From Flavobacterium alvei (GTDB taxonomy: Bacteria; Bacteroidota; Bacteroidia; Flavobacteriales; Flavobacteriaceae), in the NCBI RefSeq assembly GCF_002920895.1, contig NZ_PQVG01000006.1:124001-188000 (forward strand): a DNA stretch of 64,000 nt, read 5' to 3'. A model generated the notes under the pieces. It worked only from the letters and a program-made list of their open reading frames with translations, was not told where the DNA came from and did not search any database. Position 1 is the first letter of the stretch. Each line of letters starts with the position of its first letter. A program made the position numbers and the translations under genes. This document shows, in pieces, positions 21,035 through 55,402 of the stretch.

Positions 21035-22726
21035 CTAAAACAAATCGGTTTTTAATACAGCGCCGCTACTAGCATTGGTAACTAAACTTCTGTATTGTCC
21101 CAACCATTTTGATGTGATTACTTTTTTCAAAGGAACAAACTCGGATTTTCTTTTAGCGATTTCTTCCTCGCTTAAATTCACAGAAAGAATGTATTGATCT
21201 ACATCAATATGAATTTCATCACCGTCTTTTAGTAATCCAATCATTCCACCTTCGGCAGCTTCTGGGCTTACGTGTCCAATACTTGCTCCACGGGTTGCTC
21301 CACTAAATCTACCATCGGTGATTAAGGCTACTTTTGAGCCTAGTCCCATTCCCATAATCAAGGAAGTTGGAGCTAGCATTTCTTGCATTCCTGGACCACC
21401 TTTTGGCCCTTCATAACGAATCACAACTACATCACCAGCTTTTACCTTTCCGCTAGTAATTCCGTTAACAGCTTCTTGTTGACCATCAAAACAGACTGCA
21501 GTTCCTGTAAAAACGCGGTCTCCAGTAATTCCAGCAGTTTTGATAACAGCACCTTGTTCGGCAAGATTTCCATACAAAATAGCTAAACCTCCCACTTGAG
21601 AATAGGGATTATCGATGGTGTGAATAATTGAAGTATCTTTTATGAAAGCGTCTTTTATTTTTTCTAAAATTGTTTCTCCGCTTATGGTAAGGTTATCTAT
21701 AAGAATAGAATCTCCTCTTTTGGTCATTTCTTTCATTACAGCATTTACGCCACCAGCAGTATTAATATCTTCCATGTGAACAGTAGAAAGAGATGGTGAA
21801 ATTTTAGCAATATGTGACACTTTTTTAGAGATGCTATTGATATCTTCAAGATTGAAATTCACATCGGCTTCTTTTGCAATAGCTAGCATGTGTAAAACGG
21901 TATTCGAACTTCCACCCATTGCCATATCTACTGCAAATGCATTTCGTACAGCATTTTCGTTTAAGATATTTTTGAGTTTGAATTTTTTAGATTGCGCTTC
22001 GTCTTTTGCTATTTCGCAAATTCTTCTGGCAGCACTTCTATACAATTGTTCACGCTCTTTGGTCAGTGCTAAAATAGTTCCATTTCCAGGAAGTGCAATT
22101 CCCATGGCTTCCATAAGAGTATTCATGGAGTTTGCGGTAAACATTCCAGAGCAACTTCCGCCACTTGGACAAGCATTGCACTCAATGTCTTTAAGTTCGG
22201 CTTCATTGATTTGACCTGCTTCAAATTTTCCAACCGCTTCAAAAGCTGTGGCTAAGTCAATAGGTGTTCCGTCTTTGGTATATCCTTTTTTCATTGGACC
22301 ACCGCTTACAAATACAGTAGGAACATTAACTCTTAAGGCTCCCATAATCATACCCGGAACAATTTTATCACAGTTTGGAATGGCAATCATGGCGTCCAAT
22401 TTGTGTGCATTCATTACGGTTTCGATCGAGCTGGCTATCAGTTCTCTTGAAGGTAATGAAAATAGCATTCCGTCATGTCCCATGGCAATACCATCATCTA
22501 CACCAATAGTGTTGAATTCAAAAGGAACACAGCCGTTTGCTTTGATTTCTTCTTTTATAATTTTGGCTACTCTGTCTAAAAAAAAGTGACCCGGAATGAT
22601 TTCAATAAATGAATTGGCCACACCAATAAACGGTTTGTCAAAATCGGCATCGGTCAATCCTGTTGCTCTAAATAATGATCTATGGGGTGCTCTTTGATAC
22701 CCTTTTTTTACTTCATCACTTCTCAT
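21035..22726 (-). CDS. ilvD: Dihydroxy-acid dehydratase
   Basis: A 563-residue Fe-S enzyme of valine, isoleucine and leucine synthesis that converts dihydroxy acids to 2-keto acids. Cluster cysteines and their contexts are visible: NCDKIVPGM and [17 protein letters not shown]. The signature [14 protein letters not shown] and the C-terminal [20 protein letters not shown] complete the pattern. Full length. The other ilv and leu genes are not in the window; a likely single-gene unit with about 180 bp of upstream AT-rich sequence. Confidence 0.96.
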
Positions 22727-51235: not shown

Positions 51236-51267
51236 TTGTTTTGTAAAGATATTTTCTAGTATATTTG
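51236..51267 (+). promoter_or_regulatory. Predicted promoter of the histidine operon
   Basis: TTG at 51236-51238 and TATATTTG at 51260-51267, spacing 21 nt, fit the flavobacterial consensus. It lies 35 bp upstream of the his leader ORF. Confidence 0.6.
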
Positions 51268-51301
51268 CACTCGAATAAAAGGATTTTTTAATAAAAAAGT
51301 T

Positions 51302-51361
51302 ATGTTATCAATTCAATTGCATCACCATCATTTACAGTATTGCTCTCAAGCGATGTGTTAA
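51302..51361 (+). CDS. Histidine operon leader peptide
   Basis: A 19-codon ORF (ATG at 51302, TAA at 51359-51361) encodes MLSIQLHHHHLQYCSQAMC, with four consecutive His codons (51320-51331, CAT CAC CAT CAT). It lies between a promoter and a strong terminator immediately ahead of hisG. This is the classical layout for attenuation: ribosomes stall at the His run when His-tRNA is scarce, which prevents the terminator. A 7-bp complement, ATTTACA (51330-51336) with TGTAAAT (51371-51377), could form an alternative structure. No Shine-Dalgarno motif is clear, as is usual in this phylum. Confidence 0.88.
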   Translation: MLSIQLHHHHLQYCSQAMC

Positions 51362-51389
51362 TGGTATGTGTGTAAATCATCATATTTTA

Positions 51390-51425
51390 AAACCCGTTTG
51401 AGTACATCAAACGGGTTTTTTATTT
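51390..51425 (+). terminator. Attenuator terminator of the his operon
   Basis: AAACCCGTTTGA (51390-51401) pairs perfectly with TCAAACGGGTTT (51407-51418), 12-bp stem with 5-nt loop GTACA, then a T-rich tract. It begins 28 nt after the leader stop and ends about 57 bp before hisG, as expected for attenuation. Confidence 0.9.
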
Positions 51426-51481
51426 CCTAAATGTTGTATTCAAACAAAATTGTAAAACAACAACAAAAAACAACAACAAAA

Positions 51482-52339
51482 ATGAGTACTTTAAAAATTG
51501 CCATTCAAAAATCAGGACGCTTAAACGAAGACAGTATCCAAATTCTAAAAGATTGCGGAATTTCCATCAACAACGGAAATGACCAATTAAAAGCCGAAGC
51601 AACAAACTTTCCTTTGGAAGTTTTGTATCTTAGAAATTCCGATATTCCCCAATATTTAATTGATGGAGTGGTAGATATTGCCATTGTAGGCGACAATCTT
51701 TTGGTCGAAAAAGGAAAAAACATCAAGGTAATCCAGAAGTTAGGATTTTCTAAATGCAAAGTTTCCGTAGCCGTTCCAAAAGCTTTCGAATACAAATCCA
51801 TAAAAGACTTGGAAGGAATGCGTATCGCCACTTCTTATCCAAACACCGTTATCGAATATTTTGCCAAATTCGGAATGACCGTTGACATTCACCAAATCTC
51901 GGGTTCGGTTGAAATCGCGCCAAACATCGGTCTTGCCGACGGAATCGTGGACATCGTTTCCAGCGGAAGCACTTTGTTTAAAAACAATTTGAAAGAAGTG
52001 GAAGTGATTTTCAAGAGCGAAGCTGTTTTGGCGGTTTCTCCAAAAGTGACTCCAGAAGTTCAATCGATTATCGACACGCTTCAATTCCGAATCGAATCGG
52101 TTTTGAGAGCCAGAAAATCAAAATACATTTTGATGAACGTTCCCAACGACAAAATTGAAGCTATTGGTAAAATTCTTCCTGTTTTAAAGAGTTTAACAGT
52201 AATGCCGTTGGCAGAAGAAGGCTGGAGCAGCGTTCATTCCGTAATCGACAAAGACACTTTTTGGGATGTCATCGACCAATTGAAAGAAGCCGGAGCCGAA
52301 GGAATTTTAGTTTGTCCAATCGAGAAAATGGTACTATAA
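51482..52339 (+). CDS. hisG: ATP phosphoribosyltransferase
   Basis: A 285-residue first enzyme of histidine synthesis (long form with C-terminal ACT-like regulatory domain). Marks: STLKIAIQKSGRLNEDS, VDIAIVGDNL, GLADGIVDIVSSGSTL (PRPP-binding region) and the tail VPNDKIEAIGKILPVLKSLTVMPL. I start at ATG 51482; an in-frame ATG at 51431 would add 17 Gln/Lys/Thr-rich residues that overlap the end of the attenuator and have no family counterpart. First structural gene of the his operon, likely feedback-inhibited by His. Confidence 0.96.
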   Translation: MSTLKIAIQKSGRLNEDSIQILKDCGISINNGNDQLKAEATNFPLEVLYLRNSDIPQYLIDGVVDIAIVGDNLLVEKGKNIKVIQKLGFSKCKVSVAVPKAFEYKSIKDLEGMRIATSYPNTVIEYFAKFGMTVDIHQISGSVEIAPNIGLADGIVDIVSSGSTLFKNNLKEVEVIFKSEAVLAVSPKVTPEVQSIIDTLQFRIESVLRARKSKYILMNVPNDKIEAIGKILPVLKSLTVMPLAEEGWSSVHSVIDKDTFWDVIDQLKEAGAEGILVCPIEKMVL

Positions 52340-54784: not shown

Positions 54785-55402
54785 ATGCTAGACAAAATTA
54801 ATCATACACCTAGAGGATTAGTTATAGAACTTTCTGTTAAAACTGAAGAGGCTGTAAATCTTATTTTATCTAAATTATTAGGGATTAAGCCTGAAGAATC
54901 TCGTTCTTTTGGTAATTCTAGTCAGGCTCTTAGTTTTAATGCCAAAGCAAATTTATTGCTTGATCTTAATCAATTAGACAAGTTGCAAAGAGAAAAATTC
55001 CAGATATTTATGGAAATTAGGAACAAATTTGCTCATCTTAATTCTGTTGATACATTTGAAAAATGTTTTGCTTTAATGGGTAATTATCAAAGATTAAAAA
55101 AAATATTTGAAGTAGACGAAGATGGAGAATCTATCGAGAAAGATATGGAATTAATGTTTTGTATTTTATCTATTGATATAACTTCTATAATTGGAACAAT
55201 AAGAGAAAATGTTACCAAAAATATGGCAGTAAAATATACTCAAAGGAAATTTTTCGAAGCAATTAAAGAAAATAGAGAAGAATATAAAAAACATAATCCA
55301 TTAGATGTTAATGCGATTGACAATTTTATTAAGTTTATAAAAAACATTCTTACTGAGGAAATTGACAGAAAAATTAAAAACAACACTCCCCCTCATATTT
55401 AA
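54785..55402 (+). CDS. HEPN/MtlR-like helical protein inserted in the his operon
   Basis: A 205-residue, mostly helical protein without signal peptide. The middle block (residues 45-84, [20 protein letters not shown] then [16 protein letters not shown]) ends in RNKFAH at 79-84. This fits the HEPN RNase-type motif R-x4-H and resembles MtlR/DUF4145-like proteins. The C-terminus is Lys/Asn-rich. It starts 2 bp after hisC, ends 19 bp before hisB, and is more A+T-rich than its his neighbours. No cognate MNT partner is adjacent. Histidine synthesis has no known step for it; acquired cargo or an unknown regulator are both possible. Confidence 0.7.

Follow-up and report, generated by a model that had tools for sequence, protein, structure and literature searches.

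In enterobacteria, the his attenuator (hisL; Rfam RF00514) combines a leader peptide carrying a run of histidines with alternative RNA pairings and an intrinsic terminator before hisG. The his leader of E. coli contains seven His codons in a row, and attenuation of this kind requires coupling between the ribosome and RNA polymerase. Control of two steps by one leader is known from the trp genes of Bacillus subtilis, where TRAP, the tryptophan-activated RNA-binding protein, works a single switch that acts on both transcription termination and translation of the first gene. Leaders related to those described below may, reportedly, also have been treated by Lopatovskaya et al. (2010).

In the passages available from a 2010 survey of premature terminators, leader peptide systems are said to have been shown, to its authors' knowledge, only in Proteobacteria and Actinobacteria, with Firmicutes then added (PMC2965389). 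Excerpts of other papers describe short ORFs in B. thetaiotaomicron 5' UTRs as reminiscent of leader peptides (PMC7366714), count short leader genes near structural genes with Bacteroidetes included (PMC4833913), and state that Bacteroidia ribosomes do not recognise Shine-Dalgarno sequences (PMC9976891); the word 'leader' is absent from the excerpted text of a paper on the his genes of the superphylum (PMC8305728). The closest description comes from a 2021 study whose passages place hisG of F. psychrophilum among structured 5' elements that are present in other Flavobacteriaceae genera and lack Rfam hits, and report strong clues for leader-peptide attenuation upstream of the amino-acid operons of that species (PMC9723704). 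Judged from these passages, that hisG element is very probably a relative's copy of the one analysed here, and the base finding of a his attenuator in Flavobacterium is thus known in outline from that paper; unlike the present analysis, the passages do not give segments, covariation or a downstream pairing.

We analysed a 64,000-nt stretch of Flavobacterium alvei DNA (the window), which belongs to a 3.82-Mb genome in 22 contigs. From position 51482, Pfam matches gave the order HisG, HisD, an aminotransferase (HisC position), a 205-aa ORF, HisB, a glutamine amidotransferase (HisH position), two His_biosynth proteins (HisA and HisF positions) and HisIE, the gene letters being assigned from Pfam together with gene order. 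The genes are presumably co-transcribed. HisG of the window and HisG of Flavobacterium fluvii share 98% identity. The 205-aa ORF (54785-55402, + strand), which lies between the hisC-like aminotransferase gene and hisB, had no Pfam match at E <= 0.001.

The region before hisG is best read as a classic attenuator of the his gene cluster, in which the ribosome would sense histidyl-tRNA and thereby control transcription termination; we put the probability at about 0.92. Computation established its parts, predicted folds, alternative pairings and conservation (Table 1), and from them we infer leader translation, stalling, termination and read-through.

Table 1 Elements of the his leader region, in window coordinates
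Feature	Position	Strand	Basis
Promoter (upstream TTG/TTTTG element and TATATTTG), predicted	51236..51267	+	fits TAnnTTTG
Leader peptide ORF, MLSIQLHHHHLQYCSQAMC and TAA	51302..51361	+	sequence, conservation
1:2 stem holding the His codons	51317..51375	+	-18.6 kcal/mol for 51310-51385; 3/200 shuffles as good
Four His codons (CAT CAC CAT CAT), putative sensing site within the 1:2 stem	51320..51331	+	sequence; conservation
Segment 2, CUCAAGCG, antiterminator 5' strand	51345..51352	+	fold; conservation
Intrinsic terminator (3:4), 13-bp stem, 5-nt loop, U-run	51389..51421	+	fold, -17.9 kcal/mol
Segment 3, part for 2:3, CGUUUGAG	51395..51402	+	fold; conservation
Segment 3, part for 3:5 (second half of 5' arm, and loop), GUUUGAGUACA	51396..51406	+	pairing, covariation
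Segment 5, UGUAUUCAAAC, downstream of the terminator	51435..51445	+	11 bp with segment 3, one G-U
hisG, first gene of the his gene cluster	51482..52339	+	Pfam HisG and HisG_C
Segment 6, UGAGUAC, overlapping the hisG start; possible partner 51436-51442	51483..51489	+	7 bp, one G-U; weak in this species

The promoter, the 19-codon leader and the four His codons before hisG, on which the original prediction was built, were all confirmed in the sequence. A predicted promoter contains TATATTTG at 51260-51267, which matches TAnnTTTG, the consensus of the Bacteroidota promoter element. The leader ORF occupies 51302-51358, is followed by TAA and translates as MLSIQLHHHHLQYCSQAMC. The predicted terminator was also found, with a stem one base pair longer than the perfect 12 bp originally given: 51389-51401 pairs with 51407-51419 around the loop GTACA, with six T at 51416-51421. 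Leader RNA 51272-51425 folded at -40 kcal/mol, compared with -22.3 ± 3.2 kcal/mol for dinucleotide shuffles (0/200 as good), and the terminator alone also folded better than its shuffles (z -6.0, 0/200).

No clear antiterminator had been seen in the original prediction, and this proved wrong. Segment 2 (CUCAAGCG, 51345-51352) pairs with CGUUUGAG (51395-51402) over 8 bp with one G-U, and this 2:3 pairing with its upper stem is the minimum-energy fold of 51338-51404 alone (-15.1 kcal/mol; 1/200 shuffles as good), a stretch in which the first part of the leader is out of play and the 3' arm of the terminator is not yet made. When that arm was added (51338-51425), the terminator won at -26.4 kcal/mol; therefore the antiterminator would have to form first and the order of synthesis would matter, as in other attenuators. 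In the predicted 1:2 stem, 51349-51352 are paired and 51345-51348 form the apical loop, so that the stem would block the antiterminator in part only, because half of segment 2 lies in its loop. The three mutually exclusive pairings amount to -18.6 (1:2), -15.1 (2:3) and -17.9 (3:4) kcal/mol, each on its own stretch, and on these predicted folds the 1:2 / 2:3 / 3:4 anatomy of an attenuator is complete. The 7-bp alternative pairing proposed earlier, 51330-51336 with 51371-51377, is present as letters but does not enter the predicted fold, where 51330 pairs near 51362. An earlier reservation that the exact mechanism may differ is eased by the antiterminator, which reached -8.6 kcal/mol or better in 103/104 loci (L073 was misplaced by the script), these loci being the ones already chosen for the 3:5 pairing described below.

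In the proposed mechanism, a ribosome supplied with enough His-tRNA would complete the leader peptide, and segment 2 would leave segment 3 free; the terminator 3:4 would then form and transcription would end before hisG. When His-tRNA is short, the ribosome would stall at the four His codons and open the 1:2 stem, segment 2 (CUCAAGCG) would pair with segment 3 (CGUUUGAG) before the 3' arm of the terminator is made, and the genes would be read. The locus thus shows what characterises amino-acid attenuators, namely a small leader ORF ahead of the biosynthetic genes in which codons for the product amino acid stand in a row, an intrinsic terminator between leader and first gene and, according to predicted folds and conservation, an antiterminator that excludes the terminator and is opposed by a sensing-codon stem covering half of segment 2. 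The best Rfam match by bits was His_leader RF00514 (51319-51424, 28.7 bits, E 0.0058); it spans the full model and stays below the gathering cut-off of 49 bits, at which Rfam gave no match, and an unrelated Enterococcus sRNA family had a lower E-value (0.00026). The His-run leader, the alternative pairings and the intrinsic terminator before hisG are shared with the enterobacterial attenuator. In contrast to the E. coli leader, the run here has four His codons, the sequence and the promoter differ, and a segment 5 after the U-run pairs with the terminator arm and loop.

Conservation was examined in the DNA upstream of hisG at 246 loci, comprising 70 of 101 genus matches, 70 of 103 family matches, and 29 order, 50 class and 27 phylum loci; they were the best-scoring matches plus those next in rank, a few skipped, and not a random draw. 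The samples overlap: the window's locus recurs in the family sample (L092), L131 is from the same genome as L049, the order sample includes genus loci L113 and L122 and family loci L123 and L130, and L183, from the phylum sample, is a member of the class. His leaders, defined as peptides of 6-50 aa that lie within 320 nt of hisG and have three or more His in a stretch of seven residues, were present in 69/70 genus, 68/70 family-sample, 13/29 order-sample, 44/50 class-sample and 25/27 phylum-sample loci, and in 0-4% of base-shuffled upstream regions. The one genus miss, L019, ends at a contig edge, and the family misses L213 and L219 have two His in seven. Terminators were located by a generic finder in 69/70 genus, 69/69 family (without L092), 44/50 class and 19/27 phylum loci. 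Among titled records (the best 80 of 543 confirmed, which overlap the genus sample; 2/80 were too short), a run of exactly four His was present in 78/78, of which 73 were titled Flavobacterium, and so was a terminator (78/78). The F. johnsoniae record (L320), for example, contained MISNQLHHHHFHYCSQAMC, a terminator, segment 5 as UUUGUACUCAAAC, and ATGAGTAC. These results support the reading as a his attenuator, together with its anatomy.

Loss of the His codons with the terminator kept, the outcome named beforehand as counting against the attenuator, was absent in the genus but did occur in 16/29 order-sample loci (L108-L110, L112, L114, L115, L117-L120, L124-L129), which all belong to a single genus with 0.6-Mb genomes, a size that suggests endosymbionts. 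In 16/16 of them the His leader is missing, and hisG is still preceded by a terminator-like hairpin (AAGCTTAC..GTAAGCTT). His-leader attenuators thus appear to precede hisG in most sampled Bacteroidota outside this one reduced-genome genus. Because attenuation needs ribosome-polymerase coupling, such leaders would make it simple to test in vivo whether the two are coupled in this phylum, where translation initiation is unusual. Of seven phylum-sample loci with a His-rich leader (L162-L164, L169, L177, L179, L181), five, all but L164 and L179, gave no terminator with the finder; a GATGTCC / GGACATC-type hairpin enclosing part of the His codons was seen by eye in L162-L164, L169 and L186. A different read-out is likely for the phylum-sample leaders without a terminator.

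TAnnTTTG lay within 60 nt of the leader in 69/69 genus leaders, and the exact element was not found near the leader in 46/69 family-sample loci. In some loci the leader starts just 4-8 nt past an exact TAnnTTTG (8/69 family, 3/13 order, 7/46 class and 6/22 phylum leaders; L086, L094, L102, L145, L147 and L152 are among them). Because of this spacing, such attenuator leaders may be translated from a nearly leaderless transcript. The 2:3 pairing was compared in the 132 loci with a flavobacterial terminator, which gave 21 distinct octamer pairs; when the register was chosen by best pairing, the 168 positions comprised 130 Watson-Crick, 27 G-U, 1 A-C and 10 other combinations. Segment 2 reads CTCAAGCG in 85/132 loci and CTCAGGCG or a variant in the remainder. 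Since this pairing is kept across loci, the conserved peptide end, 'QA' followed by R, S, K, N or M, is best read as an RNA constraint.

A pairing segment downstream of the terminator had been missed in the original prediction. Segment 5 (UGUAUUCAAAC) is complementary to GUUUGAGUACA, a stretch made up of the terminator loop and the adjoining half of the 5' arm. When the 69 genus sequences were aligned, conservation reached 0.89 in the block 51434-51445, whose limits we chose, and 0.67 and 0.64 in its neighbours. A strict terminator pattern matched 128/246 loci (126 distinct) and missed 8 genus loci, L019 among them; with it, 3:5 reached P <= 0.05 against shuffled downstream regions in 61/61 genus loci (59 at P <= 0.01), 41/55 family-sample loci (36 at P <= 0.01; the window as L092 included) and 9/10 other loci (9 at P <= 0.01; L113, L122 and L130 included, L123 being the miss). 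Using the generic finder, P <= 0.01 was obtained in 66/69 genus, 38/66 family, 10/23 order, 1/40 class and 1/18 phylum loci, the ten order loci being three of the genus, L130 of the family, five of three other families, and L118, which is trivial (+0.2 kcal/mol). The class-sample cases, L157 (P <= 0.01) and L247 (P 0.02), have a flavobacterial-type terminator and belong to other orders; those of the phylum sample, L164 (P <= 0.01) and L179 (P 0.03), do not resemble the window element. Where there is no flavobacterial-type terminator, almost all sampled loci lacked the pairing. Among the best 80 of 543 titled records, 76/78 had 3:5 at -12 kcal/mol or better, and two were weaker, namely L249 at -10.0, from the nearest relative F. 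fluvii, and L252 at -10.4.

Both strands of 3:5 differ between genera with complementarity kept (GUUUGAGUAAAUC/GAUUUACUCAAAC, GUUUGAGACAAUC/GAUUGUUUCAAAC, GUUUGAGUAGUUC/GAACUGCUCAAAC, GUUUGAGCAAUUC/GAAUUGCUCAGGC). Covariation in the loop cannot be put down to the terminator, since loop positions are not part of its stem. When only the arm half was used to fix the register (115/126 loci could be anchored, giving 50 distinct loop pairs), pairing extended to 2.90 of the 4 loop positions, compared with 1.86 ± 0.13 when loop partners were dealt anew (0/5000), a permutation that deals letters among related species; outside the genus sample the values were 2.76 and 1.74 (38 distinct pairs). On a rough hisG tree (115 leaves, 141 nt of hisG), 13 double, pair-keeping branch changes fell at loop positions (null mean 2.06, maximum 6 in 200). 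The same tree gave 37 losses and 19 gains of loop pairs, so loop pairing is not rigid. Comparison of these sequences makes it well supported that 3:5 is kept by compensatory change in Flavobacterium and many relatives. In the titles, abstract openings and passages of the literature searched, we did not find a pairing segment downstream of a his terminator; within that literature, segment 5 is a conserved part of a known kind of switch that we did not find described, and it stands as a conserved, covarying addition to the textbook arrangement. As a general feature of terminators segment 5 was rejected: only 1/19 terminator-like entries in the window, that of his, has it (the 19 entries represent 16 places, three counted on both strands, and several are AT-rich and weak), and none was seen by eye at a trpE-like or pheA-like gene of the same genome. 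L101, L123 and L202, where 3:5 is absent, have a CCCG..CGGG-like hairpin followed by a T-rich stretch and ATCCCG..CGGAT where segment 5 would be.

Segment 5 would act only in read-through RNA, because it is transcribed after the termination decision. It is possible, though at somewhat less than an even chance, that 3:5 influences how stable the mRNA is, how it is processed or how ribosomes approach upstream of hisG, and that its similarity to the gene start is incidental. This agrees with its position, since segment 5 ended 12-46 nt before the AUG (median 24) and never over it in 104 loci, and with L088, L196, L201 and L218, which have 3:5 without start-region pairing; but three of the 13 loci with other starts (L088, L196, L218) do pair with hisG -12..+60 at P <= 0.04, uncorrected. 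Such a role would leave the association with an ATGAGT start and the fixed AGT codon, both given below, unexplained, and we know of no processing site upstream of hisG, which also counts against it. At the DNA level, segment 5 and the terminator arm make up an inverted repeat, but that this repeat serves as an operator instead of an RNA pairing is scarcely credible. Among 54 distinct pairs, positions that are not Watson-Crick were G-U 76 times and A-C 6 times in the sense of the hisG RNA (3:5 at P <= 0.01, at least 8 Watson-Crick pairs, with such pairs alone setting the register); the energy restriction favours G-U, and at loop positions alone in all anchored loci the counts were 10 and 12. 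The letters also change between genera with 3:5 kept, and the operator was rejected on the G-U/A-C skew and this covariation. A second sensor has been considered in the mini-ORF MCVNHHILKPV (51366-51401, +; it ends inside the terminator stem), translation of which would enter the terminator. Its pattern, with HH, matches 41/69 genus loci but is unmatched in 28/69, the reading past HHI differs by locus (LKPV, LRTRLSTSN, LKTRLSTSN or an early stop), and by eye it is absent in family loci; the variable reading and the 28 unmatched loci led us to reject it as very improbable. Its CAUCAU probably repeats the His codons since both pair with AUGGUAUG.

A translational gate added to the attenuator would make use of the resemblance at the gene start: letters of the terminator arm and loop recur in the Flavobacterium hisG start, AUGAGUAC, and segment 5 can therefore cover the start codon instead. 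In read-through RNA that keeps the terminator hairpin, a free segment 5 would pair with the hisG start (5:6) and block initiation, whereas in RNA made via the antiterminator state, segment 5 would capture segment 3 (3:5) and leave the start open. For such a gate speaks that 5:6 beat shuffles at P <= 0.05 in 56/61 genus loci compared with 3/40 ORF starts of the window, but only 19/55 other family-sample loci reached this level and the species of the window itself shows weak 5:6 pairing (-7.4, P 0.045). Among the best 80 of 543 titled records, Ser2 of hisG is AGT in 77/78, and the third base of codon 3 varies (ACT 44, ACA 22, ACG 10, ACC 2). Outside the genus sample, an ATGAGT start accompanied 35/44 loci with 3:5 and 4/20 without it, with kinship ignored and genus loci L113 and L122 among the 64; ATGAGT was nevertheless missing in 13/104 loci with 3:5, and on the rough tree only 5/17 changes of 3:5 coincided with a like change of start and 6/8 gains of 3:5 fell on branches without ATGAGT. 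The estimated barrier to 3:5 was lower from 2:3 than from 3:4 in 104/104 loci (mean 13.7 vs 23.6 kcal/mol), but 3:4 was the more stable full fold in 101/104, and from 2:3 the path to 3:5 was easier than that to 3:4 in only 40/104. Mean AUG accessibility rose from 0.33 (3:4) to 0.49 (3:5) in 91 ATGAGT loci, but the gain exceeded 0.2 in only 26/91, with a loss in 2, and accessibility rose equally in 13 non-ATGAGT loci (0.45 to 0.61), so the rise does not depend on the start mimic. This equal rise and the gains of 3:5 mostly without ATGAGT lower the odds of a gate a little, and we regard it as unlikely. The full two-level switch, in which segment 3 would choose among partners 2, 4 and 5, the hisG start codon would mimic segment 3, and the choice made by the stalled ribosome would be remembered in the read-through mRNA and decide hisG translation, is likewise doubtful. 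If segment 5 does gate translation, one ribosome-sensing event would control two steps, and Flavobacterium and its relatives would have a two-level switch in a phylum whose ribosomes do without Shine-Dalgarno pairing and are tuned by start-site structure. In terms of the TRAP logic, the stalled ribosome would be the sensor here, the translational layer being hypothetical.

Returning to the attenuator itself, other amino-acid genes were inspected by eye. Within 300 nt upstream of ilvD (21050-22687, - strand), no leader rich in branched-chain residues with a terminator was found. Elsewhere in the same genome, a trpE-like gene (L333) is preceded by a WWW leader, MKTILNNTWWWNNLRQTS, and a pheA-like gene (L332) by an F/Y-rich leader, MSSNRFYFSNTYYFFFRK, each followed by a terminator-like hairpin; both loci are likely further leader-peptide attenuators.
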